A stretch of 64,000 bases of DNA from Clostridium sp. DSM 17811. GTDB taxonomy: Bacteria > Bacillota > Clostridia > Clostridiales > Clostridiaceae. The stretch lies in NCBI RefSeq assembly GCF_018861905.1, contig NZ_JAHLDU010000005.1, positions 124,001 through 188,000 on the forward strand, written 5' to 3'. The notes below the pieces were generated by a model. It had not been told where the DNA came from, did no database searches, and saw only the letters and a list, made by a program, of their open reading frames with translations. The position numbers and the translations under genes are program-made. This document shows, in pieces, positions 3,949 through 41,961 of the stretch. Within the stretch, counting starts at the first letter, position 1, and every line of letters begins with the position of its first letter.

Positions 3949-4037
3949 GTTTATGTTGATGAATTATATAAGTATAAAATGTGTAAAGTAATAAAAATTA
4001 ATCGATGCGCAAAAAATGTGCAGGAATGGAGAAAAGA

Positions 4038-14270: not shown

Positions 14271-14946
14271 ATGAACAGAACTAAATATATTGGAGCGGCT
14301 ATCTATTACGATGGAGATGCTTGGGATATTTTGTTGGGCAAGACACTAGTGGAAAAATGTCTTCCTGTTATTACCGTGCTAACACTCGCAGCTACAGGTT
14401 CTGAAATGGATGCAGGCGGAGTTATTAGTAATCCTGATACAAAGGACAAGATTGGTTTGATTTTCCCACCAATGCAACCAAAAGTTTCTTTTCTTGATCC
14501 TACCAATACCTACACAGTAAGCAAGTTTCAGACTGCTTCTGGTGCAGCAGATATGTTAAATCATATTATGGAGTTGCCATCCAATGGAACATGAGCTATC
14601 TGCAATTTATGATATTACTCATGGCTTAGGTCTTGCTATTTTAACGCCACATTGGATGGAGTACACATTAGATATGGCGACAGTCTCAAAATTCTATCAG
14701 TTTGGTACCAATGTATTTGGAATTGATAATGGAATGGAACCTATGGAAGTTGCAAAGAGGAGCATTGAACTTGTAAAAGAGTTTTTATTTAATACATTAG
14801 ATTTAAAGAGCACATTTACAGAAATCGGTATCGATGAATCTAATTTTGCAGTTATGGCAAAGAAAGCATGTATGGATGGAGTGATTCCAGCATTTAAACC
14901 ATTGAATCAGAAAGATATTGAAAATATATTTAGAATGTGTCTTTAA
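14271..14946 (+). pseudogene. Iron-containing alcohol dehydrogenase remnant with deletions and a frameshift
   Basis: The first piece (14271-14594) contains YYDGDAWDILLGK, TLAATGSEMDAGGVISN and FQTASGAADMLNHIME, corresponding to the middle of the intact dehydrogenase at 4038. It then jumps, with a frame change near 14580, to PMEHELSAIYDITHGLGLAIL and the C-terminus up to 14946. About 100 N-terminal residues and roughly 80 internal residues are missing. It is only 5 nt after the cupin stop codon, so an alcohol dehydrogenase was probably once part of the cupin operon. Confidence 0.88.
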
Positions 14947-23981: not shown

Positions 23982-25376
23982 TTAATCATTTTTTCTGCGT
24001 TGTGCAAGTTCTTTAGTAATTTGAGCTTGTTTTTCACCTGTAAGATCCAACCACATTATAGCTCCAGTAAATATAGCAATAATAGCAGGTACAACACTCA
24101 TTAATACCCTAAGTCCAAGGAGTGTGGAACTGTTTTGCTCTGCTCCTGGTACATATCCAACAAAAACTAGTGCACTTGCAACTAATGCACCTGATAACGC
24201 AGTAGATAAAGTTTGTAAGAATTTTTGAATAGAACCCATAAATGCATTTATATTAAGCCCACTCTTCCACTCAGTATAATCCATTGCAGCTGGCATCAGC
24301 GTAGCAAGAGCTGGAGTAGATATTCCATTAAATAAACCAGCGGTGCCCATTAAAATTAAGAAAAATGTAGAACCAGTTGAAGTAGCTGGAACTAGCATAA
24401 TTCCTGCAAATGTTATCACATTGACGATAACACCTATTATTATATTATTTTTAATACCAAAGATTTTAGTTACTTTTGAACTTATGATTACACCAATAAG
24501 AGAAGGAACCAAAGCAGCAATTCCCATGGTGACCATCAAATTCTCATTGTGGAAAAAATATTTAAAATAATATAGCATGACAGCAGATTTAACACCAGTA
24601 GATAAATTTGTTGCAAACATATATATATATACAATTACAGCAGTTTTATTTGTGATAACAGCCATAAACATCTGTTTAAGTGAAGGGGCATTTTCATCTT
24701 TTTTTACTTTTGCTATATATCTTTCCTTTAAGGTAAAGCCCTCAAATAGTGATATTAATACAGTAATAATACCAACGCCTGCCATAAGTAAAGAGAATCC
24801 TTTAGAATCATTACCACCACCTAACAGTTTATATAAAGGTTGTATCCCTATGGTAGCTAATATAGCTCCTAGCATAACACCCATCATGGAAATCTGCCCG
24901 ATTGATACTCTCTCATCAATTCTTTTTGTAATAGCAGGTATTATTGCAGCTTTTGGTCCGCTTGCAAATGCGTCTGCAAGACTATAGATAGTATAAGTGA
25001 TAGTTACATATATTAACTTTCCCGTAGGACTTAAACCCATATTTGTATAGGTTAAGAAACCAAAAATACCAAAAGGTACACCTAGTATTATAAACCATGG
25101 CTTGTATTTACCCCATGGTGTAGTTACTCTATCCACAAAAACTGCAAAAACTGGCGCTGATACAGCAGAGAGAACACGAACAACTAGAAATAATCCTCCA
25201 ACATAAGCCACACTAATTTTCATTATGTCAGTATAAAAAAAGAGTAAAAATATTTGTATCATTTCATAATGAAAAGTTCCAGACAATCCACCGATACCAC
25301 AAGCTAACTTCTCACGAAACTTAAGTTTTCGGTCTTCACCTTCAATAATATTTGTATCTATAATTCTTTCTTCCAT
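23982..25376 (-). CDS. GPH-family sugar:cation symporter (MFS transporter)
   Basis: This 464-residue protein has about 12 hydrophobic segments and the glycoside-pentoside-hexuronide (GPH) pattern: GIGGLSGTFHYEMIQIFLLFFYTDIMKIS at the start, PVFAVFVDRVTTPWGKYKPWFIILGVPFG after helix 3, and DYTEWKSGLNINAFMGSIQKF after helix 8. It imports or exchanges sugars or glycosides with cations. Its promoter region (25546-25584) carries the same four-hexamer array found upstream of galU, so it probably belongs to the regulon of the two-component system at 25768. Confidence 0.9.
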   Translation of the reverse strand: MEERIIDTNIIEGEDRKLKFREKLACGIGGLSGTFHYEMIQIFLLFFYTDIMKISVAYVGGLFLVVRVLSAVSAPVFAVFVDRVTTPWGKYKPWFIILGVPFGIFGFLTYTNMGLSPTGKLIYVTITYTIYSLADAFASGPKAAIIPAITKRIDERVSIGQISMMGVMLGAILATIGIQPLYKLLGGGNDSKGFSLLMAGVGIITVLISLFEGFTLKERYIAKVKKDENAPSLKQMFMAVITNKTAVIVYIYMFATNLSTGVKSAVMLYYFKYFFHNENLMVTMGIAALVPSLIGVIISSKVTKIFGIKNNIIIGVIVNVITFAGIMLVPATSTGSTFFLILMGTAGLFNGISTPALATLMPAAMDYTEWKSGLNINAFMGSIQKFLQTLSTALSGALVASALVFVGYVPGAEQNSSTLLGLRVLMSVVPAIIAIFTGAIMWLDLTGEKQAQITKELAQRRKND

Positions 25377-25500
25377 ATTTACACTCCTTATCTTTTGAGT
25401 TGTTATAAAGTTTTAAAAAAACAATGATTCACTTATTTCTTATTTTAATCTCCCCTCATTAAGGTATTTCTATGGTTTATATGTTTAAACCAACATATTC

Positions 25501-25588
25501 TTAATATTTAATTGTTCACTTGATGACCTTATTATCTTATACCGGTGTTAAAATGCTTTTAAAGTAATGTTAAAAAAATGTTAAATTG
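25501..25588 (-). promoter_or_regulatory. Four-hexamer promoter module A (upstream of the GPH transporter)
   Basis: Read on the minus strand, hexamers TTAACA, TTAACA, TTAAAA and TTAACA start every 11 bp (plus-strand positions 25579-25584, 25568-25573, 25557-25562, 25546-25551), followed by a TATAAG/GATAAT -10 region and a leader containing AATAAGGTCATCAAGT. The same order and almost the same bases occur at 28525-28612. Hexamers on one helix face fit a tandem OmpR-type dimer site. Confidence 0.8.
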
Positions 25589-25689
25589 ATTAATTAACCA
25601 TAATTTACAATCAATTAATTAATTTCCATAGTAATTTATAAAATATACAAAAAATATTTTATGATAACATGAGAATTGCAGTTAAAAAA

Positions 25690-25721
25690 TTAACAACTTT
25701 TTAACATTAATATTGTATAAT
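25690..25721 (+). promoter_or_regulatory. TTAACA-N5-TTAACA site and -10 box of the two-component operon
   Basis: TTAACA at 25690-25695 and 25701-25706 have an 11-bp period and overlap the -35 region of a promoter with TATAAT at 25716-25721. The gap from the second hexamer to the -10 box is 9 bp, unlike module A and B, so the regulator may act differently on its own operon. Confidence 0.65.
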
Positions 25722-25767
25722 ATAATTATTAATGAAGTCTTATAAAATGAAGGGAGAAACGCAGGCG

Positions 25768-26439
25768 ATGTTTAATATTCTTGTTGTTGAAGATGATACA
25801 AAATTGAATTATATTATATGCGCTTATCTTAACCGTAATGGGTACAACGCTTATGGATGCAAGAATCCGATAGAAGGATTTGATAAAATGGCCTCCACCA
25901 TGTGTGATTTGATTATTTCAGATATTATGATGCCAGAGATGGATGGTTTTGAATTTGCAAAGGTTATGAGGGAACAGGATAAGACAATGCCAATCCTATT
26001 TATTACTTCCCGTGATGATATTTCATCAAAGCAGAAGGGATTCCGTATTGGTATTGATGATTATATGGTGAAACCGATAGATATGGATGAATTAATTCTT
26101 CATGTTGGAGCTCTGCTGAGGCGTGCGAACATTGCTAATGCAAGGAAGATTACGATTGGAAGATTGGAGATGAACATTGACGAGATGACAGCAACCTTGG
26201 ATGAAGAAGAAATTCCGATAACAGTTAAAGAATTTAATATATTGTATAAATTGCTTTCCTATCCGAAACGCACATTTACTAGAAGTCAGTTGATGGATGA
26301 ATTTTGGGGATTATCCAGTGAAAGCGGTTGCCGAACTGTTGATGTTTATATTACAAAAATAAGAAATAAATTTTCCGATTGCAAAGACTTTGAAATAGTA
26401 ACGGTACATGGGCTGGGATATAAGGCGGTGCTAAAATGA
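25768..26439 (+). CDS. OmpR-family response regulator
   Basis: ATG at 25768 (MFNILVVEDD) is preferred over 25732 because GGGAGA lies just upstream and receiver domains normally begin this way (223 aa). The receiver has the DD acidic pair, phosphoacceptor Asp in DLIISDIMMPEMDG and the conserved Lys in DDYMVKPID. The C-terminal winged helix includes PITVKEFNILYKLLSYPKRTFTRSQLMDEFWG and VDVYITKIRNKF. It is the likely binder of the TTAACA 11-bp repeats. The stop overlaps the kinase start codon. Confidence 0.93.
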   Translation: MFNILVVEDDTKLNYIICAYLNRNGYNAYGCKNPIEGFDKMASTMCDLIISDIMMPEMDGFEFAKVMREQDKTMPILFITSRDDISSKQKGFRIGIDDYMVKPIDMDELILHVGALLRRANIANARKITIGRLEMNIDEMTATLDEEEIPITVKEFNILYKLLSYPKRTFTRSQLMDEFWGLSSESGCRTVDVYITKIRNKFSDCKDFEIVTVHGLGYKAVLK

Positions 26440-27500
26440 AAAAGGATAGAAAAATAAAAAATAAGCGAATTAATGCAAGCCTTTTTTCATTAAAAGAATA
26501 TTCGTTAATATTCATTATGCTTTTTATAGTAATCAATACTTACGACAGTTTGAATTACAGTTTAAAAAGTGATAATGATTCGTCTTTTTTTATTATTAAC
26601 GGTTTATTGATGGGGAATTTAATCTTTTTATGTTTAGTCATTTGCATTGCTCTAGGAGTAATAAGACAGCATATTATAGGTAAACCGATTAAGAAAGTTT
26701 GTAAAGCTGCGAATAAAATTGCTGATGGCGATTTCTCGGTAAGAATTGCGCCATTTCGTACAGATGGTAAAAAAGATGATATAGAGGTTTTGATTGATGA
26801 TTTTAATAAGATGGCAGTGGAACTGTCAAGTATTGAAATGATGAAAAATGACTTTATCTCTAATGTATCACATGAGATTAAGTCACCACTTTCTGTGATT
26901 CAAAGCTATTCTATGGCATTACAAGATGATGATCTTTCATTAGAAGAGAGGAGAGAGTATACAAAGACCATAGTAAATGCAACACAAAAACTGTCATCCC
27001 TTGTAACGGGTATCCTAAGACTTAATAAATTGGAGAATCAGGTTATATTTCCGGTAGCTGTGGAGTATAGTCTGGATGAACAATTACGTTGTTGTGCGCT
27101 TGACTATGAGGAAAAATGGGAAGAAAAAAATATTACGCTGGAAGTCGAACTTGATGAGGTGACTATATCTAGTGATGAAAGCCTATTAGAAATCGTCTGG
27201 AATAATTTGATAGGAAATGCAATTAAATTTACTGATGATGGTGGTATTATAAATTTGAAATTGAGAAAAGAAGAAGACACAGCGATTGTTACAATTGGGG
27301 ATAGTGGATGCGGCATGCATGAGGAGATAATAAGACATATTTTTGACAAGTTTTATCAGGGAGATGTATCTCATTTTAAAGAAGGAAATGGGCTGGGACT
27401 TGCTATGGTGAAGAAAGTTTTGGATATTGTTGATGGAGAGATTAAAGTAGATAGTAGACCAAATGAGGGAACTACTTTTACGATAAGTTTACATATGTAA
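26436..27500 (+). CDS. Sensor histidine kinase partner of the 25768 regulator
   Basis: This 354-residue kinase overlaps the regulator by 4 nt (ATGA). Two membrane segments (about 20-40 and 55-78) flank a short outside loop of only some 15 residues, so it may sense a membrane event or a partner protein. A HAMP domain (GKPIKKVCKAANKIADGDF), the phospho-acceptor motif FISNVSHEIKSPL, and the ATPase boxes NNLIGNAIKFT, GDSGCGM and NGLGLAMVKK follow. A nearly extracellular-domain-free kinase next to an export system resembles intramembrane-sensing kinases of antimicrobial and envelope stress. Confidence 0.92.
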   Translation: MKKDRKIKNKRINASLFSLKEYSLIFIMLFIVINTYDSLNYSLKSDNDSSFFIINGLLMGNLIFLCLVICIALGVIRQHIIGKPIKKVCKAANKIADGDFSVRIAPFRTDGKKDDIEVLIDDFNKMAVELSSIEMMKNDFISNVSHEIKSPLSVIQSYSMALQDDDLSLEERREYTKTIVNATQKLSSLVTGILRLNKLENQVIFPVAVEYSLDEQLRCCALDYEEKWEEKNITLEVELDEVTISSDESLLEIVWNNLIGNAIKFTDDGGIINLKLRKEEDTAIVTIGDSGCGMHEEIIRHIFDKFYQGDVSHFKEGNGLGLAMVKKVLDIVDGEIKVDSRPNEGTTFTISLHM

Positions 27501-27508
27501 ATTTAATA

Positions 27509-27562
27509 CATTTTAAAACCTGCATAATATAATAAAATCATCAAATAAACAATTAAATATCA
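27509..27562 (+). promoter_or_regulatory. Promoter module C, partial (upstream of the CDF-like gene)
   Basis: This stretch repeats the -10 and leader part of module B (CATTTTAAAACC, GCATAATATAATAA, then TCATCAAATAAACAATTAAA), with TATAAT at 27528-27533. Only the two hexamers nearest the -10 box are preserved (TTTAAT 27502, TTAAAA 27513); the upstream TTAACA pair is missing. Confidence 0.65.
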
Positions 27563-27591
27563 AGAAGATCCTATTAGAGGAGAAGGAAGTT

Positions 27592-28434
27592 ATGAAAAAA
27601 AGAAATTATGAGCGGATACTGTTTTTTACCAAATTATCCGTACTGTTAAATGTAATTATGGCGGTCGGGAAAATACTTGTAGGAATTTTTTCTTTATCTT
27701 TCTTTTTATGCATAAATGCTTTCTATAATATCGCAATGGGCATGGCAAAAACAATTTTTATAAAGGAATATTATGATGGTAAAAAGGAGCCTGATGAAGA
27801 ACATCCAGACGGATACGGAAAAGGAGAATATCACTGTTATTACCTCGGTGGAATTATTGTTCTCATATCAAGTATTGTTTACATGGTTTATTGTATCAGA
27901 ATGTTTGTCAGCGGTGACAGTGTCAAATATTCGATGATTGTTTCGTTAGCAATCGCTGTTTTTACTTTTACAGAGCTTGGAGTGTCAATTCAAGGCGCAA
28001 TTGTGACAAGACGAGATAAAGAGCCTGTAATTGAGGCAATTAAGCTGACAAATCTTGCTTCTTCTATGATATCACTTGTGCTTACGCAGACTGCCATAAT
28101 GTCTTTTTCTTATGATGGGGATGCTTCTTTTTATAACGGAATGTCAGGAATGATATTGGGAAGCGCTTCGGCAATTCTTGGACTGTATATGATTATCTAT
28201 ATACAACGTATTATGCTTGGTAAAAATCACGCCTCGGTTTTAAGAAAAGCAAATAAAATCGCAAAAAAATGTGCTCCCGGTTTCTTTTTTGAAGCAATTA
28301 AATATGAGGACAACGGACCGAGTACAAGAAAAATATATGTACGAACGACGGAACAATATTCGGAAGAATTCTATGAGAAAGTACAATATGAAATCAAATC
28401 AAGGTTACATATAGACGTGATAAGAGTACTATAA
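27592..28434 (+). CDS. CDF-like membrane protein without canonical metal ligands
   Basis: This 280-residue protein has five or six hydrophobic segments and a cytoplasmic C-terminal domain of about 75 residues. LLNVIMAVGKILVGIFSLSF and the loop EEHPDGYGKGEYHCYYLGGI match the second and third helix region of cation diffusion facilitators (usual form HPYGHGKxE). However, the helix-2 metal pair HxxxD/DxxxD is replaced by INAFYNIAMG, and no HxxxD pair is visible in the helix-5 counterpart (NLASSMISLV). It is therefore probably not a standard metal exporter. AGGAGAAGG precedes the start. It sits between the sensor kinase and galU behind promoter module C. Confidence 0.65.
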   Translation: MKKRNYERILFFTKLSVLLNVIMAVGKILVGIFSLSFFLCINAFYNIAMGMAKTIFIKEYYDGKKEPDEEHPDGYGKGEYHCYYLGGIIVLISSIVYMVYCIRMFVSGDSVKYSMIVSLAIAVFTFTELGVSIQGAIVTRRDKEPVIEAIKLTNLASSMISLVLTQTAIMSFSYDGDASFYNGMSGMILGSASAILGLYMIIYIQRIMLGKNHASVLRKANKIAKKCAPGFFFEAIKYEDNGPSTRKIYVRTTEQYSEEFYEKVQYEIKSRLHIDVIRVL

Positions 28435-28447
28435 TAAAACTGATAAG

Positions 28448-28500
28448 GAGCTGTCTTTTCTAATGATTTAAAAAATCATTAGAAAAGACAGCTCTTTTTT
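28448..28500 (+). terminator. Very strong terminator after the CDF-like gene
   Basis: A perfect 22-bp stem (28448-28469 with 28473-28494, arm beginning GAGCTGTCTTTTCTAATGAT) with an AAA loop is followed by TTTTTT. Its sequence closely resembles the split hairpin at 36311 and 43490. Confidence 0.92.
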
Positions 28501-28524
28501 ATTTGGGGAAAAAACTCCTATATT

Positions 28525-28612
28525 CAATTTAACATTTTTTTAACATTTCTTTAAAAACATTTTAATATCGGCATAATATAATAAGGTCATCAAGTAAACA
28601 ATTAAATATTAA
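28525..28612 (+). promoter_or_regulatory. Four-hexamer promoter module B (upstream of galU)
   Basis: Hexamers TTAACA (28529), TTAACA (28540), TTAAAA (28551) and TTAATA (28562) start exactly 11 bp apart, followed by TATAAT at 28577-28582 and a leader with AATAAGGTCATCAAGT. It is nearly identical to module A over about 85 bp. The spacing and direct orientation fit an OmpR-type regulator, most simply the one encoded at 25768. Confidence 0.8.
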
Positions 28613-28643
28613 AAATAACTTACATAAAAAGGAGATATAGTAT

Positions 28644-29558
28644 ATGAAAATTAAAAAAGTTATTATACCGGCAGCAGGACTTGGAACAAGATTTCTGCCT
28701 GCAACAAAGGCAATACCTAAAGAAATGTTACCTATAGTTGATAAGCCTACAATGCAATATATTATAGAGGAAGCGGTTGCTTCTGGCATAGAAGAAATAT
28801 TAATTATTACAGGAAGAAATAAAAAATCTATTGAAGATCACTTTGATAAATCAGTAGAACTTGAGCTAGAATTAGAACATAAACATAAGGAGGAGCTTCT
28901 TAAACAGGTTAGAGACATATCAAACATGGTGAATATACAATTTATAAGGCAAAAGGAACCAAAAGGACTTGGACATGCTATAAATAAAGCAAGAGCTTTT
29001 GTAGGTAATGAACCCTTTGCTGTAATGCTTGGTGATGATATAGTTGATGCTAAAACTCCATGTTTAAAGCAGTTAATGAATTGTTTTGAGGAAAAGAATG
29101 TAACAATCGTTGGAGTTCAAGAAGTAGCGAAAGAAAATGTTGATAAATATGGCATAGTTGATGGAGTTCAAGTTAGTGATCGAGTATACAAAGTAAATAA
29201 TCTTGTTGAAAAACCTGATGTTAATGTAGCACCCTCTAATTTAGCTATACTTGGTAGGTATATAATAACTCCAGAAATTTTTGATATATTAGATAATACA
29301 TCACCTGGCAAGGGCGGAGAAATTCAGTTAACTGATGCTCTAAAAACATTGATTTCAAGGCAAGATATGTATGCATACGTATTTGAAGGACGTAGATATG
29401 ATGTAGGTGATAAATTGGGATTTCTCGAAGCAACAGTTGAGTTTGCTTTAAAGAGACCTGAATTAAAGGTTCCATTTATGAAGTATCTTCAGACCTTAAA
29501 AAATAATGATAACTTTAAGGGGATATATGAAGAAGTAGCTTGTGACAATGAAAAATAA
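28644..29558 (+). CDS. galU: UTP-glucose-1-phosphate uridylyltransferase
   Basis: This 304-residue protein has the GalU nucleotide-binding start VIIPAAGLGTRFLPATKAIPKEMLPIVDKP, the MLGDDIV metal motif and VEKP plus RYDVGDKLGFLEA near the end. It makes UDP-glucose from UTP and glucose-1-phosphate. Full length and well formed, with AAGGAGA before the start. The neighbouring glycosyltransferase would use UDP-glucose, and both are behind promoter module B. A housekeeping galU may exist elsewhere, in which case this is a dedicated copy. Confidence 0.95.
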   Translation: MKIKKVIIPAAGLGTRFLPATKAIPKEMLPIVDKPTMQYIIEEAVASGIEEILIITGRNKKSIEDHFDKSVELELELEHKHKEELLKQVRDISNMVNIQFIRQKEPKGLGHAINKARAFVGNEPFAVMLGDDIVDAKTPCLKQLMNCFEEKNVTIVGVQEVAKENVDKYGIVDGVQVSDRVYKVNNLVEKPDVNVAPSNLAILGRYIITPEIFDILDNTSPGKGGEIQLTDALKTLISRQDMYAYVFEGRRYDVGDKLGFLEATVEFALKRPELKVPFMKYLQTLKNNDNFKGIYEEVACDNEK

Positions 29559-29608
29559 GAACTATAGATTTAATATACTAATAAAATAAAAAGGATGGTT
29601 AAAATAAA

Positions 29609-30790
29609 ATGGCTAAAATATTATTTATAAATTTGTTCGGTAATGGACACTTTAACCCTACAATAGGTCTAGTTAAAGAATTAATGAGTAGAGGAGAACA
29701 GGTTACTTATACTGCTGGTGAAGAGTTTAGAGAGAAAATAGAAAAGACAGGAGCTGAATTTAAAAGCCATACTAGTTTATCAAATTCAATTAATGGACAT
29801 TCAAATTCAGATTCGAAAAATAGTAAGTCTCCGCTAGAAGAGTTAAAAGAAATGATTGAAGAAATAACTGACTATGTATTTAATTCAAAAGAAAAATTTG
29901 ATTATATTTTTTACGATTCAGCTTTTATTATAGGAAGTGAAGTTGGAAGAATATTAAAAATACCTACGATTTGTTCTATTACTACTTTTGCAACTAACGA
30001 AAAAGCAAATGTTTTTTCAGAGGTATTTAAGCAATATGGACCTATAATACAGCAACTTGTAAATAGCCCCGTGTACATAAATTTAGCTAAAAATTTAAAA
30101 GAAAAATATGATATAAAGATTCCTAGTTTAACTACTGCAGTTACTGGGACAGGCATGATTAATCTTGTATATACTTCTAAGTATTTTCAACTTTGTGGTG
30201 AAAGTTTTGATGAAAGTTACAAATTTATTGGCCCATCAATATCAGATAGAAAGGATGAATTGGATTTTTCTTTAGAAACTAATGGTAAGAAGAAGGTTAT
30301 TTATATATCTTTAGGTACTCTATTTAATGCGTCTATTGAGTTTTATGAAAATTGCTTTAAAGCTTTTGGTAATATGGATGCAACGGTTATTATGTCTATA
30401 GGTAAAGACACAAATATTAATATATTTAGTGATATTCCATCTAATTTTATTGTTCGCAATTATGTATCTCAGCTTGAAGTTTTAAAACATACAGATGTAT
30501 TTATTACCCATGGTGGTATGAACAGTACTAATGAAGCTCTGTATTATGATGTTCCATTGATTCTTATTCCTCAATCAGTTGATCAGCCTGCCGTAGCAAA
30601 TAGGGTAGCGGAGCTCGGTGCAGGTATTGTTATTGAAAAAGATAAAATTACCCCTGAGACATTGAATCAATCGGTAGTTAAAATTCTTTCAGACAATACA
30701 TTTAGAATAAACAGTGAAAAGCTTGGAAGATCGCTTAGAGAAGCAGGAGGATATAAAAAAGCTGTTGATGAAATACTTAAATTAAAGTGA
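29609..30790 (+). CDS. MGT-type (GT1, YjiC-like) UDP-glycosyltransferase
   Basis: This 393-residue GT-B enzyme starts AKILFINLFGNGHFNPTIGLVKEL, the acceptor-side start of macrolide-type glycosyltransferases. The C-terminal donor site has ISLGTLFNAS, NYVSQLEVLKHTDVFITHGGMNSTNEAL, VPLILIPQSVDQPAVANRV, the UDP-sugar motif of GT1. Relatives glucosylate small hydrophobic acceptors such as macrolides, flavonoids or isoprenoids. Placed after galU and before an ABC exporter, it probably glucosylates a lipid or a toxic compound for export. No membrane segment is seen. Confidence 0.9.
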   Translation: MAKILFINLFGNGHFNPTIGLVKELMSRGEQVTYTAGEEFREKIEKTGAEFKSHTSLSNSINGHSNSDSKNSKSPLEELKEMIEEITDYVFNSKEKFDYIFYDSAFIIGSEVGRILKIPTICSITTFATNEKANVFSEVFKQYGPIIQQLVNSPVYINLAKNLKEKYDIKIPSLTTAVTGTGMINLVYTSKYFQLCGESFDESYKFIGPSISDRKDELDFSLETNGKKKVIYISLGTLFNASIEFYENCFKAFGNMDATVIMSIGKDTNINIFSDIPSNFIVRNYVSQLEVLKHTDVFITHGGMNSTNEALYYDVPLILIPQSVDQPAVANRVAELGAGIVIEKDKITPETLNQSVVKILSDNTFRINSEKLGRSLREAGGYKKAVDEILKLK

Positions 30791-30925
30791 AGATATTATT
30801 GTCAAAGTTGAAATACATATAAACTTTGGTCACATTTTGGGATAATATCCATCATGTGGCTATATTTTTAAGGGCTAGGGGAACTTTCGAGTAAAAAAAG
30901 ATCAAGATGAATGGGGATGATACTT

Positions 30926-32701: not shown

Positions 32702-34569
32702 GTGCAAACAATAAAGAAAATAAATCAGCAGGTGGAATAGGAGACTCAGACGGCCCAATGGGATCGCTTGCGAGTCCTAAAGCTAAAGCCAAAGATTTCA
32801 AAGGGACGCTTAAAAGACTTTTAGGTTATTTAAAGCCACAAAGAACTAATTTTATTCTAGTATTTATATTTGCGATCATCAGTACTATTTTTACAATAGT
32901 AGGACCTAAGATTTCAGCAAAAGCGATAGACAAATTGGTTGAGGGTATAACAAACGTAAATGGCGTTAATATAGATTTCACATATATAAAAAATATTATC
33001 CTTATATTAATTGTATTGTATTTAATAAGTACAGTTTTCGGCTTCCTTCAACAATATATTATGTCCGGAGTTGCGCAGAAAACTGTTTACAATATGCGTC
33101 TTGAGGTTGAGGATAAGTTATCAAGGTTACCTCTTAAATTCTTTGATGCAAGAACTCACGGCGAGATATTAAGTCGTGTAACAAATGATGTTGATAATAT
33201 ATCAACAACGCTTCAACAAAGTCTTACACAACTTATTACGTCTATTGTTACGATAATTGGTATTATCGTTATGATGCTTACAATAAGCCCAATAATGACA
33301 CTAGTTGTAATTTTAACATTGCCATTATATATTGGTGTGACAGCATTAGTCGCAAAAAGGTCTCAAAAATATTTTGCAGCGCAGCAAAAAGAAATTGGAG
33401 AACTTAATGGTCATGTTGAAGAGATGTACACTGGCCACAAAATCGTTAAATCTTTTGGACATGAGAAAGATTCAATTGAAGAATTTGAAAACATAAATGA
33501 TAAGTTATATGACGCGGGCTGGAAAGCTCAGTTCATATCTGGGATAATAATGCCTATTATGAAATTCGTTGGTAATATAGGTTATGTAGTAGTTTGTGTT
33601 GTTGGTGGACTTTTAGCAACACAGGGTAAAGTCACTATTGGTAATATTCAAGCCTTTATCCAATACTCTAATCAGTTTACACAACCAATAGTTCAAACTG
33701 CTAATATTGCTAATATCATCCAATCAACAGTAGCTTCAGCTGAGCGTATTTTTGAATTGTTGGATGAGGTTGAAGAACTTGAAGAAACTTCTGCGACTAA
33801 AGTAATTAAGCTTCCTAAGGGAGAAGTTAAGTTCGAACATGTTGATTTTAGTTATAATTCAGAAAAATCACTTATAAAAGATATGAATATTGATGTAAAG
33901 AGGGGACATACAATTGCAATTGTTGGACCAACTGGTGCTGGTAAGACTACGCTTGTTAACTTGCTTATGAGGTTCTATGAAATTGATGCTGGTAAAATTT
34001 CAATAGATGGAGTTGATATAAGAGATATAAAACGTGGAAATCTACGTAATATGTTTGGTATGGTACTTCAAGATACTTGGCTATTTAATGGTACTATAAT
34101 GGAAAATATTGCTTATGGTAGAGTTGGCTCAACAGATGAGGAAGCTATGCAGGCAGCAAGAGCGGCTCATGCACATCACTTTATTAAGACTCTTCCTGAT
34201 GGATATAATACAATACTAAATGAAGAAGCATCAAATATATCACAGGGCCAAAAACAACTTCTCACTATAGCTAGGGCAATACTTGCAAATCCAACTATTA
34301 TGATACTTGACGAAGCCACAAGTAGTGTCGACTCAAGAACAGAAGTTTATATACAAAGGGCTATGACAGAACTTATGCAAAATAGAACAAGTTTTGTAAT
34401 TGCACATAGACTTTCTACAATTAAAGATGCAGAGTTAATTTTAGTTATGGATAAAGGAAGTATTATTGAAATGGGTAACCATAATGAGCTTATTGCTAAA
34501 AATGGATTCTATGCAGATCTTTATAATAGTCAGTTTTCTGGGGCAAACTTAGATAATGACGTAGTATAA
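32698..34569 (+). CDS. ABC exporter half-transporter B (canonical ATPase)
   Basis: This 623-residue half-transporter has an extra hydrophilic N-terminal tail rich in Lys, Gly and Ser (about 40 residues), then six helices and an ATPase with Walker A GPTGAGKTT, signature NISQGQKQ, Walker B MILDEATSSVD with the catalytic Glu. Its start overlaps the partner by 4 nt. Together they form a heterodimeric type IV exporter. The tail is longer than usual and may be regulatory. The pair directly follows a glycosyltransferase gene. Confidence 0.93.
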   Translation: MSANNKENKSAGGIGDSDGPMGSLASPKAKAKDFKGTLKRLLGYLKPQRTNFILVFIFAIISTIFTIVGPKISAKAIDKLVEGITNVNGVNIDFTYIKNIILILIVLYLISTVFGFLQQYIMSGVAQKTVYNMRLEVEDKLSRLPLKFFDARTHGEILSRVTNDVDNISTTLQQSLTQLITSIVTIIGIIVMMLTISPIMTLVVILTLPLYIGVTALVAKRSQKYFAAQQKEIGELNGHVEEMYTGHKIVKSFGHEKDSIEEFENINDKLYDAGWKAQFISGIIMPIMKFVGNIGYVVVCVVGGLLATQGKVTIGNIQAFIQYSNQFTQPIVQTANIANIIQSTVASAERIFELLDEVEELEETSATKVIKLPKGEVKFEHVDFSYNSEKSLIKDMNIDVKRGHTIAIVGPTGAGKTTLVNLLMRFYEIDAGKISIDGVDIRDIKRGNLRNMFGMVLQDTWLFNGTIMENIAYGRVGSTDEEAMQAARAAHAHHFIKTLPDGYNTILNEEASNISQGQKQLLTIARAILANPTIMILDEATSSVDSRTEVYIQRAMTELMQNRTSFVIAHRLSTIKDAELILVMDKGSIIEMGNHNELIAKNGFYADLYNSQFSGANLDNDVV

Positions 34570-34650
34570 AATCTTCATTTTAACTTATTATATATTTATC
34601 AGCTAAAGAAAAACTTAAAAATATTATAAATAAAGTGAGGGATAAATATT

Positions 34651-35469
34651 ATGAAAGATGTATGTGTAATTACTGGTGGCGGAAGCGGAATGGGATTTGC
34701 GGCGGCTAAACTGGCGGGAAAAGATCATTATATAATTATTTCAGGAAGAACTATTGAAAAATTACAATCAGCACTTAATGAGTTAAAAGCAGAAGGAATT
34801 GAGGCAGAAGCTTTTGCTTGTGATGTATCAGATTTTGAATCGGTTACAAAATTGGCTGATCGTGCAGGTGAAGTTGGAAAAATAGTTGCGGTCATTCATT
34901 CAGCGGGGTTATCACCACATATGGGTGATGCACAAAAGATTATGGAAGTTAATGCACTTGGAACTATTAATGTGAATGAGGTTTTTAGTGCTAAAATGGG
35001 AAAAGAAACTTGTATTCTGGATGTTGCATCTACTTCGGCATATATGTTGCCGGATGAGTCTTTACCTGTATCGGATTATGAAATAAGTTTTACAGATAAA
35101 GAGCAATTTATAAAAAAGATGGTAGAATCAGTAAAGCATTTTCCAGAACATATGCATGCAAGCATTGCATATCCCATATCTAAAAATTTTGTAATCTGGT
35201 ATGCAAAAAAATGTGCAGCGCTATATGGAGATAAAGGAATCCGTGTAGTATCAGTGTCTCCAGGAAATATAGAAACACCGATGGGGAAATTAGAATCTGA
35301 AGGAGCAGATAAATTAACAAAATTGTGTGCAATTAAAAGATTTGGCTATGCCAAGGAAGTTGCATATCTAATTAATTCTTGTATTGATAAAAGAAATGGA
35401 TTTTTAACGGGTACGGACATACTTTGCGATGGAGGACTAATATCTGGTATGAAATCAATGAAAAAGTAA
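34651..35469 (+). CDS. Short-chain dehydrogenase/reductase 1
   Basis: This 272-residue SDR has the nucleotide motif TGGGSGMGFAAA, a modified NAG region (HSAGLSPHMGDAQ) and the active-site region AYPISKNFVIWYAKK with Tyr and Lys separated as YPISK. The catalytic Ser lies in STSAYML. An insertion of about 35 residues between catalytic Ser and Tyr (SLPVSDYEISFTDKEQFIKK) is longer than usual and could shape the substrate pocket. The end GTDILCDGGLISG is typical. It is 81 nt after the ABC genes and 53 nt before a second SDR. Confidence 0.88.
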   Translation: MKDVCVITGGGSGMGFAAAKLAGKDHYIIISGRTIEKLQSALNELKAEGIEAEAFACDVSDFESVTKLADRAGEVGKIVAVIHSAGLSPHMGDAQKIMEVNALGTINVNEVFSAKMGKETCILDVASTSAYMLPDESLPVSDYEISFTDKEQFIKKMVESVKHFPEHMHASIAYPISKNFVIWYAKKCAALYGDKGIRVVSVSPGNIETPMGKLESEGADKLTKLCAIKRFGYAKEVAYLINSCIDKRNGFLTGTDILCDGGLISGMKSMKK

Positions 35470-35522
35470 CAACATTCTGCAAATAACTAAGACCTTATAC
35501 AAATATTAAAGGAGGAATAATA

Positions 35523-36281
35523 ATGAAACTTAATGAAAGAATTGCAATAGTAACAGGGGCTGCGTCAGGGATGGGAAGGTCGATTGCCATTCTATATGCT
35601 AAGGAAGGAGCGAAAGTGGTAGTATCAGACATTGACTTGGAAGGTGCAAAAGCAACAGTAGCTGAGATTGAAACAAATGGTGGATCTGCTATGGCGGTAT
35701 TAACCAATGTAACCAAAGAAGAAGACATACAAAACTTAATTGATACTACCGTTAAAGTTTATGGCACAGTTGATATACTAGTCAATAATGCAGGTATAAT
35801 GGACAATATGGCTGCAGCTGGGGATGTTACAGATGAACTATGGGATAGGGTATTTGCAGTTAATACTACTTCAGTGATGAGAGCTACTAGAAAAGTGTTG
35901 CCGATATTTTTGACTAAAGGAGCTGGGGTAATCATCAATATAGCTTCAGTAGGTGGCCTTCGTGGTAGTACAGCTGGTGCTGCATATACAGCTTCCAAAC
36001 ATGCAGTGGTAGGCTTTACCAAGAATACAGGATTCCAATATGCAAAGGAAGGAATCCGATGCAACGCCATAGCTCCAGGCCCCATAAAGACCAATATCAG
36101 TGCATCTATGGGAAATGTTAATCAGCGGGGTGCAGCAATATGTAATACTGGAATGAGTCTGATTCAAAGGCTCGGTGAGCCGGAAGAAATAGCCGGAGCA
36201 GCGCTTTTCCTAGCAACAGACGATTCCAGTTTTGTTAATGGTACGGTCTTGACTGTTGATGGCGGTTGGACTGCTTATTAA
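35523..36281 (+). CDS. Short-chain dehydrogenase/reductase 2
   Basis: This 252-residue classical SDR has TGAASGMGRSIA, NNAGIMDN, the catalytic Ser in NIASVGG, YTASKHAV (Tyr, Lys), and C-terminal NGTVLTVDGGW. Asp36-type residue VVVSDIDLEG suggests NAD(H) preference. AAGGAGG precedes the start. It is a separate branch from the SDR at 34651. Function is not deducible; a tailoring role in the same product pathway as the glycosyltransferase is an inference from position. It is the last gene before the IS-bounded block. Confidence 0.9.
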   Translation: MKLNERIAIVTGAASGMGRSIAILYAKEGAKVVVSDIDLEGAKATVAEIETNGGSAMAVLTNVTKEEDIQNLIDTTVKVYGTVDILVNNAGIMDNMAAAGDVTDELWDRVFAVNTTSVMRATRKVLPIFLTKGAGVIINIASVGGLRGSTAGAAYTASKHAVVGFTKNTGFQYAKEGIRCNAIAPGPIKTNISASMGNVNQRGAAICNTGMSLIQRLGEPEEIAGAALFLATDDSSFVNGTVLTVDGGWTAY

Positions 36282-36423: not shown

Positions 36424-36818
36424 GTTTATGGGATATTCAACGGGTCTTAAGTAAGTTACGTATTGATTTGGTGATAATTTTGCTAGTCCCATTGATAATG
36501 GTCATTGTTGTAATAATCCATATAATCATCAATCACAAGCTTTAAATCTAAGATACTATAGAATCTTTCAAGATGTATTTCATCCTTCATATGTTCAAAG
36601 AATGATTCCTGTGGAGCATTGTCCCAACAGTAGCCTCGCCTAGACATAGACTGGCGTAGTTTCTTGTCTTTTAAAAGCTGTCGAAAAGATATGCTTGTAG
36701 CCATGATTGTAGAAAAGGTAGTTATATCGGTGAGAAGTATCATACCAGGACCATGTTCTTGGAACTCTCGGGTTACCAGCTTTTCAGAAACATTGCTGGT
36801 TTTCATGGCTTTTGCCAT
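36424..36818 (-). pseudogene. IS3-family transposase orfB remnant
   Basis: The minus-strand frame includes GMILLTDITTF (first catalytic Asp), then jumps by deletion to LRQSMSRRGYCWDNAPQESF with second Asp and FFEHMKDEIHLE with catalytic Glu, and YYNNDHYQWD. A one-base loss after QWD shifts the frame; the last part (LAKLSPNQYV..LRPVEYP) continues in another frame. The DDE order is normal for the family but the enzyme is not functional. Confidence 0.85.
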
Positions 36819-37451: not shown

Positions 37452-38210
37452 TTACAGTGGAAGGTCTTTCTTACAGAACCATGAGCTGCCTATTACATAT
37501 GAAGCTACTGCAATTCCAATAGGGAATATCATTTTAAAAATCCAGTCATTCACTCCGTATAACACTGACTTATAATCATAGAATGAACAAATTGTGAGGT
37601 ATTTGAAATTCTCTAAGCCACCTATGCCAAGATTACCAAACATTGATAGCATATTTGCAAGAACCATAACTCCAATAAATGTTCCACTAAATCCAATAGA
37701 ATACTTTGATGCGTTAAATATGCCTGAAAATAGGAAGCAGACACTTGCCATTGCAATGCATACCATAAGTGCTGAAATATTCACCTGCAAAATCATTGTG
37801 TTTGTAAGGTTTCCAGTTAATTGTTTGTAGCCTAGTTTTGCGAGTGCAATTGGGGTAACATTATTTACTATTAAATGTCCAACTGTTTGAACTGCAAACA
37901 TAGCAACAAGCGAACCAGTCAAATAAATTATCTGAGTAAATACTACAGTGCAGCGCCTTGTTGGTGTTGATAGTACATATGCCATGGAGCCACTGTCCAC
38001 CTGGCTGGCTAACAATTTGTTAGCTGTAACCAGTACATAGATTCCAGGCAGGATTGTGGTCATCATTCCATAAAAAATGACAAATAACATGGACTGCGTC
38101 ATTTCCATGCCTGCAAACTGAACACATAACAATGTCATAACCAATGTCATTGCTCCCCATATTACTGAATTTGATTTAACTGTTTGTTTAAATAAAGGAA
38201 AACTAAACAT
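37452..38210 (-). CDS. ABC-2-type transporter permease
   Basis: This 252-residue protein has about six hydrophobic segments and the ABC-2 arrangement: TVKSNSVIWGAMTLVMTLLC start, a loop LLASQVDSGSMAYVLSTPTRR (typical after helix 2), long helices, and a C-terminal ASYVIGSSWFCKKDLPL. It would form a heteromeric exporter with the two ATPases at 38203 and 39098. Its start overlaps the preceding gene by 8 nt. The gene order ATPase-ATPase-permease is read leftwards, divergent from the two-component genes at 40220. Confidence 0.88.
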   Translation of the reverse strand: MFSFPLFKQTVKSNSVIWGAMTLVMTLLCVQFAGMEMTQSMLFVIFYGMMTTILPGIYVLVTANKLLASQVDSGSMAYVLSTPTRRCTVVFTQIIYLTGSLVAMFAVQTVGHLIVNNVTPIALAKLGYKQLTGNLTNTMILQVNISALMVCIAMASVCFLFSGIFNASKYSIGFSGTFIGVMVLANMLSMFGNLGIGGLENFKYLTICSFYDYKSVLYGVNDWIFKMIFPIGIAVASYVIGSSWFCKKDLPL

Positions 38211-39114
38211 ATTTCTGTACCTCCTGTTTTTCTATAATGTTTGTGTAATACCATTCCAATGTATATGGCTGATAATTAATATATCTAATGTTATAAGGTT
38301 GCAAACTCTTAAAAAGTCTGTTCATTTGTGTATCATTTATTTTGATTACCAGATGATTGTAATTTTCATTTTGAGTTAAAATCTCATAATTGCATTTTAA
38401 GAACTGTTGGTATTCTTTTGGGACAGCAAACCCAATTTTATATTGCTTATCCATATTTTCCTCATACTGTGCACGATCTACGATATTAATCATTTTGCCA
38501 TTATGTATAAATGCAACTCTGTCACAAGTATCTTCTAATTCTTTAAATATGTGACTACTTAAAAAAATGGTTTTGCCTTTTTTCTTCTGTTCCAGAATTA
38601 ATTCAATTAATTTATCACGCATCATGGGATCCAATCCTGTCGACGGTTCATCCATAATTAGAATATCCGGCTGCGACATAAATGCTGCAACAATTGCAGT
38701 TTTCTGCTTCATTCCTTTACTCATTCTTTTTAAACTGGCATCTGAATCAAGCTTAAACATATCAATCAGTTTGTTCATATATGACAAATCTTTGATTCCT
38801 AAAAAATCAGCCTGGATTTTTAGAAAATCAGTTCCGGTTCCAACATCGGGAAAATCAATCTGTCCGGGAATATATCCTACGGACTTTTTAATTTCATAGG
38901 CGTCTTTCCAGCTGTCATTTCCATTGATAGTAATTTTACCATTCTGTGGTTTTATAAAACCCATCATATTTCTTATTGTTGTAGTTTTTCCACTCCCATT
39001 AGTCCCCACGAGACCAAACACTTCGCCACGCTTTATATCAAATGAAAAATCAAATATTCCTCGCCCATGTCCATAATCCTTGGTAAGATTACTGATGTTA
39101 ATGATTTTTTCCAT
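38203..39114 (-). CDS. ABC transporter ATP-binding protein 2
   Basis: This 303-residue ATPase has Walker A GTNGSGKTT, signature RMSKGMKQKTAI, Walker B ILIMDEPSTGLD, and a C-terminal domain of about 90 residues. It shares the start NLTKDYGHGRGIFDFSF with the adjacent ATPase (NLTKDYGHGRGIYDVTF), so the two are tandem duplicates that diverged. It overlaps the upstream ATPase gene by 17 nt and the permease by 8 nt. Confidence 0.92.
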   Translation of the reverse strand: MEKIINISNLTKDYGHGRGIFDFSFDIKRGEVFGLVGTNGSGKTTTIRNMMGFIKPQNGKITINGNDSWKDAYEIKKSVGYIPGQIDFPDVGTGTDFLKIQADFLGIKDLSYMNKLIDMFKLDSDASLKRMSKGMKQKTAIVAAFMSQPDILIMDEPSTGLDPMMRDKLIELILEQKKKGKTIFLSSHIFKELEDTCDRVAFIHNGKMINIVDRAQYEENMDKQYKIGFAVPKEYQQFLKCNYEILTQNENYNHLVIKINDTQMNRLFKSLQPYNIRYINYQPYTLEWYYTNIIEKQEVQKYV

Positions 39115-40024
39115 TAGTCACACCTCCAAACTTCTTATCACTCTTATAAAAATGCATGAAATATTCTTCTAATGTTACTGGATTTTCCACAAAAAATTTC
39201 ACATTATAACTTACTATAACAGCGAGAAACTTATTCACGTCTGCATCTTCCATAACAATTTCTACTTTTAGTTGCTTCTCATTCATGCTTTCAAATTCAA
39301 ACTTTTCATTCAGGAATCTTTTATAATCTTCCTTTCCTATAAATGTAATCTCTACAATTTTACGCAAGCCATGTTTTACCTCAGCTGCATCAACAACAGA
39401 AACTATTCTTCCATCCTTTATAATTGCAATTCTGTCGCAAAGTGCCTCTACTTCAGCAAACATATGACTCGAAAGTAAAATCGTTTTTCCTCTTTTCTTT
39501 TCATCTTTAATAAACTCTATGAATTTCTCCTGCATAACTGGATCTAGTCCACTAGTTGGTTCATCAAGCAGAAGTATTTCAGGGTCATTCATAAATGCTG
39601 CAATTACTGCAAGCTTTCTTTTTTCACCAATACTCATTCGCTTAACATTTTGCTGTAGATCTATTTCAAATATTTCGGAAAGTTTTATTACTCCTTCCTG
39701 ATTCTTGGCTTTTCTTAGTCCCTGCATCATATCTATAAATCCATTTCCATTCAATCCTTCTGGAAGTTCTACCTCCCCGGGAAGATATCCTACACTTTTC
39801 AGAATCTTTGCATAATCTTTTCTACAATCCATTCCTAATATTTTCGCATATCCTTTTTGTGGTGCTGCAAAACCCATAAGATGTCTAATCGTTGTTGACT
39901 TCCCTGCGCCATTTGGTCCAAGGAACCCTAGTGTTTCACCTTTATTTACTTCAAAGGTCACATCATAGATTCCACGTCCGTGACCATAATCTTTCGTCAA
40001 ATTATTAACTTCAATCACTGCCAT
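39098..40024 (-). CDS. ABC transporter ATP-binding protein 1
   Basis: This 308-residue ATPase has Walker A GPNGAGKST, signature RMSIGEKRKLAV, Walker B ILLLDEPTSGLD and a His-switch in LLSSHMFAE. A C-terminal domain of about 90 residues follows. It is first in the ABC operon, with AGGGAGG 7 nt before the start on the minus strand, and a TATAAT at 40060-40055. It is divergent from a two-component system, which is the usual way such exporters of peptides or antibiotics are controlled. Confidence 0.92.
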   Translation of the reverse strand: MAVIEVNNLTKDYGHGRGIYDVTFEVNKGETLGFLGPNGAGKSTTIRHLMGFAAPQKGYAKILGMDCRKDYAKILKSVGYLPGEVELPEGLNGNGFIDMMQGLRKAKNQEGVIKLSEIFEIDLQQNVKRMSIGEKRKLAVIAAFMNDPEILLLDEPTSGLDPVMQEKFIEFIKDEKKRGKTILLSSHMFAEVEALCDRIAIIKDGRIVSVVDAAEVKHGLRKIVEITFIGKEDYKRFLNEKFEFESMNEKQLKVEIVMEDADVNKFLAVIVSYNVKFFVENPVTLEEYFMHFYKSDKKFGGVTNGKNH

Positions 40025-40219: not shown

Positions 40220-40894
40220 GTGGCAATAATTTTAATTGCAGAAGATGAAAAAAATTTACAAGTACTATTGGATGAACGTCTAAAACACTATTATACAATT
40301 ATTCTTGCTAATGATGGAATTGAGGCAATGGATATTCTATTATCCAGACATATTGATCTTTTAATCGCAGATGTGATGATGCCGAAAATGGATGGATTCC
40401 AATTATTAAATGGAATCAGACAGGATGGCATGAAACTTCCAGTCTTGATACTGACTGCAAAACAATCTTTTTCAGATAAACAAACTGGTTTTACATTTGG
40501 AACGGATGATTATATGACAAAGCCCGTTAATTTTGATGAACTTCATTGGCGTATTGATGCCCTGCTTAGAAGAGCTAATATAGCATCACAGCGCATTATC
40601 CGCATTGGTGATGTTACGCTTAACGAAGCTAATTATACAATTTCAAAAAACAGTATGACTATAGAACTGCCTCCAAAAGAATTTGACTTAATATATAAAT
40701 TTCTTTCCTATCCTGGCATGATATTCACAAAAGCCCAACTTCTAAATGAAATATGGGGCTATGATTCAGAGAGTAGTGAAGATACAGTAAAGACTCATGT
40801 AAGTCGTCTACGCAATAAGCTTGTAGAATTTCAGGAATTTCAAATAGTAACAATTAAGGGACTTGGTTACAAAGGTATTATTATAGATAATTAA
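40220..40894 (+). CDS. OmpR-family response regulator (ABC-2 module)
   Basis: This 224-residue regulator starts with GTG at 40220, with AGGAGG 9 nt upstream. Receiver: AEDEKNL, phosphoacceptor Asp in DLLIADVMMPKMDG, Lys in DDYMTKPVNF. Winged helix: IELPPKEFDLIYKFLSYPGMIFTKAQLLNEIWG and TVKTHVSRLRNKL. Related to the regulator at 25768 (same order, about half of visible residues shared). It probably controls the divergent ABC genes through the 195-bp intergenic region. Confidence 0.93.
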   Translation: MAIILIAEDEKNLQVLLDERLKHYYTIILANDGIEAMDILLSRHIDLLIADVMMPKMDGFQLLNGIRQDGMKLPVLILTAKQSFSDKQTGFTFGTDDYMTKPVNFDELHWRIDALLRRANIASQRIIRIGDVTLNEANYTISKNSMTIELPPKEFDLIYKFLSYPGMIFTKAQLLNEIWGYDSESSEDTVKTHVSRLRNKLVEFQEFQIVTIKGLGYKGIIIDN

Positions 40895-40911
40895 GAAGGG
40901 AGACCCCTGCT

Positions 40912-41961
40912 ATGAAGAAGTCTAAAAAAAAATTAAAATCTAATTTAGGATTACTTGGATGGATGAGGATAGAATGCATGGTTGTGGTTATCGGTTCTAT
41001 CCTAATATACGAATTAACCGATTTTATTACTAACTACGTTCTATATAAAAATTATGACTATAAACCTATTTCAGGAATTGGAATGTTTTTTCCGATGAGT
41101 ATTCTCGTATATGCTATTACCACGGCTTTTTCCAGAACACTCTATCATCATATTTCTGAGTTAACGAATGGAATATCTAAGATTGCGAAAGGCGAATTTA
41201 ACGTCAAATTGAACGAGAGTAGTGGTGGCCCATTAAAAGAAGTCTACCATAACTTTAATATCATGTGTGATGAACTAAACAGCATTGATACATTAAGGAA
41301 TGATTTTGCAAATGAATTTTCACATGAATTTAGGACTCCTATTGCCTCCATTAATGGATTCTCCAATCTATTATTAGATGGAAACTGCTCACAAGAACAA
41401 GTAACAAAATATCTGTCCATAATTGCATCAGAGAGTGAACGGCTTGTTGCGCTTACACAAAGTCAGTTATTATTATCAAAACTTGATTCCCAAAATATTG
41501 TGATTAACAAAACTAGTTATTATTTGGATGAACAGATTCGTCAATGCGCTATTATGTTGGTTTCTGAGTGGGAAAAAAAGAAACTTGAAGTTTCTTTTGA
41601 ATTGCCTAAAATTCCATTCTTTGGAAATGCTGACATGATGAATCATTTATGGATTAATCTATTAACTAATGCAATAAAATACACTCCTGAAAATGGAGAG
41701 ATATTTATTCAATCTCGGTCAAATGATAGCGAGATTGAAATTTCGATTAGTGATACTGGCATAGGAATGACAGATGAACAAATTGAACAAATTTTTAAAA
41801 AATATTACCAAGTGGAAAACAGTATATCCGTAAGCGGTCTCGGTCTTGGACTACCAATTGTAAAACGAATCATTATGCTTAACAACGGACAGCTTAAGGT
41901 AACTAGTACTCCTGGTGAAGGGAGTACCTTTACTGTTGTTCTTCCGCTTGAAAACGCATAG
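40912..41961 (+). CDS. Sensor histidine kinase (ABC-2 module)
   Basis: This 349-residue kinase has two membrane segments (about 16-36 and 58-78) with a short loop, HAMP, phospho-acceptor motif FANEFSHEFRTPIASINGF, and ATPase boxes NLLTNAIKYT, SDTGIGM and GLGLGLPIVKR. The small outside loop and the adjacent exporter suggest an envelope-stress or peptide-antibiotic sensor. RBS AAGGGAG precedes the start. It is 17 nt behind the regulator gene. Confidence 0.93.
   Translation: MKKSKKKLKSNLGLLGWMRIECMVVVIGSILIYELTDFITNYVLYKNYDYKPISGIGMFFPMSILVYAITTAFSRTLYHHISELTNGISKIAKGEFNVKLNESSGGPLKEVYHNFNIMCDELNSIDTLRNDFANEFSHEFRTPIASINGFSNLLLDGNCSQEQVTKYLSIIASESERLVALTQSQLLLSKLDSQNIVINKTSYYLDEQIRQCAIMLVSEWEKKKLEVSFELPKIPFFGNADMMNHLWINLLTNAIKYTPENGEIFIQSRSNDSEIEISISDTGIGMTDEQIEQIFKKYYQVENSISVSGLGLGLPIVKRIIMLNNGQLKVTSTPGEGSTFTVVLPLENA

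Follow-up and report, generated by a model that had tools for sequence, protein, structure and literature searches.

Four-hexamer arrays with an 11-bp period at duplicated promoters of Clostridium sp. DSM 17811 as putative operators of a neighbouring OmpR/PhoB-type two-component system

Response regulators of the PhoB family bind at the −35 position of their promoters and contact RNA polymerase, and the boxes of PhoP in Bacillus are TT(A/T/C)ACA-like with a spacing of 11 bp. In the excerpts of the papers cited here by accession, PhoB-type regulators are described as binding tandem 11-nt direct repeats head-to-tail (PMC4415409); SaeRS of Staphylococcus aureus uses GTTAA-N6-GTTAA half-sites 11 bp apart in which TTAA is essential, with saeP carrying two listed SaeR sites, an autoregulated promoter P1, membrane accessory proteins in the operon and a kinase of 351 amino acids with a short linker (PMC5083920); and RR_1586 of Clostridioides difficile is assigned the motif DRTTAAGNWWW, repeated twice, and a dispersed predicted regulon (PMC6222199). 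The hexamer TTAACA occurs in the excerpt of PMC8457756 only as part of a Rex site, and no description of the promoter code reported below was found in the literature that was searched. Here, arrays of TTAACA-like hexamers were analysed that lie beside a two-component system in a 64 000-nucleotide stretch of Clostridium sp. DSM 17811 (the window; contig NZ_JAHLDU010000005.1). Feature coordinates are collected in Table 1.

Modules A (minus strand) and B (plus strand) are 91% identical across 97 nt, slightly longer than the 85 bp given in the preliminary description of this DNA. In both modules four TTAACA-like hexamers begin at 0, 11, 22 and 33, exact 11-bp steps as had been noted, and the −10 begins at 48, which is 15 nt past the start of the fourth hexamer. 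The four-hexamer score was 23.4 for A and 22.8 for B, whereas 30 shuffles of the window (64 kb, first-order Markov) reached at most 19.8. The two shorter versions that had been pointed out were also recovered: promoter D of the two-component operon carries hexamers at 25690 and 25701 and TATAAT at 25716, 15 nt past the start of the last hexamer, and the partial copy C before the gene for a protein of the cation diffusion facilitator (CDF) type, the CDF-like gene, 82% identical to B over 72 nt, retains the −10, the leader and just two hexamers (27503 and 27513), spaced by 10 bp instead of 11.

The arrays are very probably operators of the OmpR/PhoB-type response regulator encoded at 25768–26439, which would bind at the −35 position and control a private, autoregulated regulon. 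The features of such operators are present, namely a neighbouring regulator with a receiver domain and a winged helix, head-to-tail half-sites every 11 bp and a fixed distance of 15 nt to the −10. In its phosphorylated form the regulator would sit on the DNA as head-to-tail dimers, with a single dimer occupying the hexamer pair of its own promoter D (positive autoregulation) and a pair of dimers covering each four-hexamer array of A and B. Since it lies across the −35 region and keeps a constant distance to the −10 (15 nt from hexamer start to −10 start), the array would replace the −35 box and bring RNA polymerase to a promoter that is weak by itself. Binding, activation, dimer number, signal and function are what we infer, unlike sequence, spacing, conservation, locality and co-occurrence.

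The region upstream of the regulator gene was compared among 12 regulator loci with at least 60% identity from 206 genomes of the family, the own locus included; an order-level search of 225 genomes gave the same regulator matches. The promoter D type is kept in 11 of the 12, with pairs of TTAACA or TAAACA, N5 between them and a −10-like hexamer exactly 15 nt past the second start (scores 16.0–18.0). These loci are not all independent: the regulator of the sister genome G001, which forms a species pair with the window genome, is 99% identical, and G160 and G161 share one promoter sequence. No TTAACA/TAAACA pair was present in 11 paralogous promoters (scores 13.4–16.1), ten of them belonging to regulators at 45–54% identity and one to the second regulator of the window (41% identity). 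The recognition helix reads VDV(Y/S)ITK in 12 of 12 orthologues, and elsewhere (V/I)DVH (the ten paralogues at 45–54%), VKTH (the second regulator of the window) or VDVHIRHLR (the genome's own PhoP).

A wider set comprised the best 80 of at least 571 relatives from named genomes, with 58–72% identity. A preset TTAACA score of 16.5 was passed by 14 of these, 13 of them at a spacing of 15, and by no shuffle; since the first half-site in this output was often CAAACA or GAAACA, a relaxed pattern (..AACA-N5-..AACA-N9 followed by the −10) was adopted. Of the 80 relatives, 54 had it ahead of the regulator gene and none on the reverse strand, the shuffles giving a mean of 0.02 and a maximum of 1 over 50 rounds. 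Under this pattern the half-site period is 11 in 49 and the −10 distance is 15 in 47 of the regulator promoters. The consensus across relatives is roughly (C/T)AAACA-AAACT-TTAACA-N9-TATAAT, (C/T/G)AAACA being the commonest first half-site, and most of the 54 relatives with the operator have TG before the −10. Carriers include Thermoanaerobacterium (L136), Paenibacillus algorifonticola (L137), a Spirochaetales metagenome-assembled genome (L139) and Planomicrobium (L155), and the pattern is absent in Acetobacterium (L142) and Enterococcus larvae (L165). Most of the 80 relatives have the helix VDVYMTK or VDVYITK, both with and without the relaxed operator, so that the helix marks the family rather than each operator. 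Because a similar strip stands beside the same regulator in many relatives, the array looks like a real control code rather than a chance repeat or a mobile element.

Other genera likewise have four-hexamer arrays next to this two-component system, with a period of 11 and a −10 distance that is usually 15. Among 864 upstream regions from 91 orthologous loci, 61 reached the array cut-off at a period of 11, compared with 1, 0, 2 and 0 at periods of 9, 10, 12 and 13; the controls gave 1 of 133 regions at paralogue loci (2 of 133 at a period of 12) and 4 of 2592 shuffles. Forty unique arrays are followed by a strong −10-like hexamer within 7–30 nt, which in 32 of them lies at 15 nt, and an earlier count with the −10 fixed at 14 or 15 nt had placed 80 of 879 regions above all shuffles. 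A sequence-only model built from 12 such promoters was run on eight genomes, 150 first-look candidates being scored per genome. All 14 matches with E < 1e-3 lie at most 6 kb from a two-component system of this kind; as 12 of them had gone into the model, what is informative is the two new ones (in G179 and G140, also local) and the absence of matches elsewhere. In the own genome A and B alone fell below 1e-3 (next best E 0.08), and G168 gave no match below 1e-3, its weak ones (0.006–0.009) including two at its two-component system and others elsewhere. The regulon appears to be private and local, comprising the two-component system, the symporter, the galU–glycosyltransferase pair and perhaps, weakly, the CDF-like gene. 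Of the targets to which the preliminary description had tied the system, the symporter and galU–glycosyltransferase are plausibly retained, the array tracking the two-component system; the CDF-like gene is weakly linked, because C has lost most of its array and because the remnant of C in G001 has no CDF gene beside it.

Several points weigh against the assignment of the arrays to this regulator. The stricter preset score was passed by just those 14 of 80 relatives, and the relaxed pattern was written only after its output had been seen; with its loose −10, this pattern also finds distances of 10 nt (16 loci) and 20 nt (eight loci). Twenty-six of the 80 relatives lack the relaxed pattern (three of these with at most 169 nt upstream), including the closest of them, Paenibacillus phytohabitans (L135, 72%). 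The second two-component system of G001 has no pair (score 13.0) though its downstream genes bear arrays. By score the separation is narrow: the paralogue L103 reaches 16.1 with a single TTAACA at a spacing of 15 preceded by TTCATA, and 1200 shuffles peak at 16.4, above the weakest orthologue, G179 (16.0), whose site has perfect hexamers and spacing with a poor −10 (TAGGAT) and does not exceed the controls. Module C is degenerate. Weak sites may also exist elsewhere in the own genome, in which 150 of 13 050 first-look candidates were scored. Finally, three σ70-like pairs (9 of 12) fall on arrays B and D, at 28540, 28550 and 25701; a σ70 consensus scan of 25300–30900 gave 36 sites compared with 31.7 expected in shuffles and is thus uninformative overall.

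These pairs, which presuppose other −10 boxes, would also suit a regulator that represses rather than activates from the array, as would the position of the array over the −35 region, since polymerase could be blocked by a protein bound there; some OmpR-family regulators do act as repressors. The bases 17 nt upstream of the −10 used in A and B match TTGACA poorly, however, a TG stands before the −10 in most operator-bearing relatives, though not in A and B, and the fixed 15-nt phasing would be typical of contact between an activator and polymerase, so that repression is considered unlikely and activation is preferred. The arrays could also be Pho boxes of the genome's own PhoP that report phosphate starvation. 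They resemble the Bacillus PhoP boxes given above and share the 11-nt direct repeats of Pho boxes in the excerpt of PMC4415409, and both the kinase and the regulator score best against Pho-type models, yet below the cut-offs (164.6 of 270 and 149.7 of 296.2 bits for the regulator against PhoB models). No TTAACA array was found at the promoters of the own PhoPR–pst–phoU genes, the 12-promoter model finds nothing at this locus even up to E 1, and the array tracks the neighbouring two-component system across genera. Before pstS (assigned by position; L104 about 1255–1290) AAAGTTAACTTTA occurs twice, 22 bp apart, and this pair is likely to be the Pho box of this genome. With a different box at the pstS promoter and the arrays confined to their locality, membership in the Pho regulon was rejected as highly improbable.

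Two further explanations concern the copying of leader and operator together. This copying, and the inversion of A relative to B, would be expected of a mobile or dispersed repeat resembling a miniature inverted-repeat transposable element (MITE) that happens to sit at promoters. When the own genome (5.19 Mb) was searched with A, 40 of 105 first-look candidates being scored, B was returned with E 1.3e-32 and C with 2e-12, the next best being 0.011; the genome-wide search for the array thus added no close copy to the three known ones, all inside 3.2 kb. A mobile repeat would have left many dispersed copies, and the arrays of other genera adjoin the same two-component system; with no further close copy in the genome, this explanation was discarded and its probability is regarded as negligible. 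The conserved leader had been ascribed either to recent duplication or to an RNA function. A functional RNA or a regulatory 5′ element independent of the regulator would account for a leader that is as conserved as the array among A, B and C and for the conservation of bases 6–9 after the −10 across genera. This cross-genus signal was measured in an initiator set of 65 promoters (the 80 regions of the earlier count minus 12 regulator genes and three near-duplicates; at least one regulator gene, L149, remains and some members may be chance), in which base 6 is a pyrimidine in 57, base 7 A in 52, base 8 T in 37 and base 9 C in 25; such a pyrimidine-ATC after the −10 would look like a transcription start site. 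Beyond the initiator there is little signal across genera, base 13 showing a modest preference for T, and only A, B and C in this species pair have the longer match, so that the longer leader identity is local and may be covered by lineage-specific copying. Folding of the leaders was no better than that of shuffles (z −0.28, 1.12 and 0.31), and Rfam gave no credible match: four rows (E 0.008–0.82) are animal microRNA models below gathering scores that overlie the terminator hairpin at 28439–28503. An RNA function is accordingly held to be quite improbable, and of the two earlier suggestions local duplication is the favoured one.

The leader match thus looks like part initiator and part local copying or duplication. 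Module A differs from its counterpart in G001 at 1 of 90 positions, B from its counterpart at 17 of 90 and A from B at 9 of 90, as might be expected if A and B were recently copied or converted from one another in this lineage, or if G001 changed faster. All three modules would be copies of a single promoter cassette, with its leader, through which genes specific to the species came under the control of a sensor system that is old and widespread. The sister genome retains A (89 of 90 nt), B, D and the remnant of C. Its second two-component system has arrays before a gene for a small membrane protein with a Y(T/E)Y-like motif and before a pair of short-chain dehydrogenase/reductase (SDR) genes; this pair is 92–93% identical to 34651–36281 of the window, where the SDR promoter (34565–34655) has kept the −10 region of the array-bearing copy of G001, has lost the array and now lies behind ABC exporter genes. 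Downstream of the SDR genes of the window, an open reading frame at 36483–36818 resembles a transposase fragment by eye.

Table 1. Positions of the modules, promoter elements and genes in the window, and of example Y(T/E)Y genes in relatives' loci.
Feature	Position	Strand	Details
Module A	25496..25592	minus	Four-hexamer 11-bp array, −10 and leader; upstream of GPH symporter gene
Array A	25546..25584	minus	TTAACA-N5-TTAACA-N5-TTAAAA-N5-TTAACA; hexamers 25584–25579 TTAACA, 25573–25568 TTAACA, 25562–25557 TTAAAA, 25551–25546 TTAACA
−10 of module A	25531..25536	minus	GATAAT; predicted transcription start 25524
Module B	28521..28617	plus	Four-hexamer array, −10 and leader; upstream of galU
Array B	28529..28567	plus	TTAACA-N5-TTAACA-N5-TTAAAA-N5-TTAATA; hexamer starts 28529 TTAACA, 28540 TTAACA, 28551 TTAAAA, 28562 TTAATA
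−10 of module B	28577..28582	plus	TATAAT; predicted transcription start 28589
Module C	27502..27573	plus	Degenerate copy, two hexamers 10 bp apart, −10 at 27528, conserved leader; upstream of CDF-like gene
Promoter D	25690..25721	plus	TTAACA-N5-TTAACA-N9-TATAAT; two-component operon
Response regulator	25768..26439	plus	Receiver and winged helix; proposed binder of the arrays
Sensor histidine kinase	26436..27500	plus	Two predicted membrane helices, HAMP, HisKA, HATPase_c
CDF-fold membrane protein	27592..28434	plus	Apparently without transport-site D/H residues
Intrinsic-terminator-like hairpin	28448..28494	plus	Between CDF-like gene and module B
GPH-type sugar:cation symporter	23982..25376	minus	Behind module A
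GalU (UTP-glucose-1-phosphate uridylyltransferase)	28644..29558	plus	Behind module B
MGT/YjiC-type UDP-glycosyltransferase	29609..30790	plus	Downstream of galU
Y(T/E)Y examples	L089:6973-7509, L090:10591-11097, L092:6141-6530, L050:11042-11647		

The regulator matched PF00072 and PF00486 above cut-offs, and the predicted membrane helices of the kinase (residues 15–33 and 58–76) are separated by about 24 residues. As the hairpin closes the CDF-like gene ahead of B, module B probably starts a separate transcription unit; ABC exporter genes follow further downstream of galU and the glycosyltransferase, the first of them having been checked by domain search. The long leader of the symporter gene contains an inverted repeat, TGGTTTA-N6-TAAACCA (25473–25492), with a small predicted hairpin, which is perhaps another operator. 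The second two-component system of the window (40220–41961) is of the same type and lies beside ABC transporter-like genes (37452–40024). At 14271–14946, two overlapping open reading frames are by eye apparent pieces of one iron alcohol dehydrogenase like that at 4005–5210.

A gene of the CDF-like family lies near this kinase gene in 37 of the 80 relatives, and 53 of the 80 loci encode a Y(T/E)Y protein, a membrane protein of about 125–200 amino acids with an N-terminal Y(T/E)Y-like motif. Among the 72 loci with more than 3 kb downstream, 57 encode one or both (29 both, 7 the CDF-like protein alone, 21 the Y(T/E)Y protein alone) and 15 neither. The Y(T/E)Y proteins that were scanned gave no Pfam or NCBIfam match above cut-off, and none was found in the own genome by a search that had no positive control. 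The CDF-like protein of the window is a divergent member (40% identity to that of G179 over 199 residues, 15–23% to the other aligned members); used as a query it retrieved only the own genome and G179 from the 206 family genomes at 1e-15, and among 40 pattern stretches in genome contigs no relative was confirmed. Its predicted model has the CDF fold (mean predicted local distance difference test score, pLDDT, 88.8). CDF transporters have a metal site of Asp/His residues in transmembrane helices 2 and 5. By this rule no D/H pair was seen by eye at the metal-site helices in an alignment of 30 CDF-like proteins, including 27 of the 37 from the relatives' loci, and many have Glu in helix 5. The CDF-fold protein may have lost its metal site and may be a sensor, or a brake on the kinase.

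Taken more broadly, and only tentatively, the locus could represent a widespread unnamed sensor system of Bacillota, consisting of the response regulator, the kinase, a CDF-fold protein that has probably lost its metal site as a sensor or brake on the kinase and a Y(T/E)Y protein, with a fixed promoter grammar (two or four half-sites, period 11, −10 at 15, YATC initiator) and a cassette that is copied in order to recruit cargo such as glucosylation or export genes. The cargo here (GalU, the glycosyltransferase and the ABC exporter genes) hints, with low confidence, at glucosylation or export under envelope or chemical stress. A repeat spotted by eye would become a testable regulatory code common to many anaerobes, many of them known only from metagenomes, and would allow the regulon of an uncharacterised sensor to be predicted from sequence alone. 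The loci also point to a transporter-fold protein family, perhaps without a transport site, that travels with the kinase, and copies A, B and C suggest that promoters are duplicated as cassettes, wiring new genes into an old system.

Compared with the systems described in the excerpts cited above, the arrays are like Pho boxes in being tandem 11-nt repeats of OmpR/PhoB-family regulators (PMC4415409), whereas the Pho regulon comprises other genes and has another box before pstS here, and the present system is local. SaeRS (PMC5083920) shares the half-site spacing of 11 bp, the autoregulated promoter, the membrane accessory proteins and possibly the short linker of the kinase. The half-site here is TTAACA, however, with T or A before it in A, B and D, and the frequent CAAACA half-site of the relatives lacks the TTAA that SaeR needs; the neighbours (a CDF-fold protein here and small Y(T/E)Y proteins in relatives) and the targets differ as well. 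Membership in the Sae system fails on the half-site, the GTTAA-N6-GTTAA box as given in that excerpt not being matched. RR_1586 (PMC6222199) is likewise an OmpR-family regulator with TTAA-type half-sites every 11 bp, but its predicted regulon is dispersed where the one proposed here is local, and no four-site array is described in the excerpt. The arrays are best placed among OmpR/PhoB-type operators of a known kind, of which they are a further and apparently widespread example.

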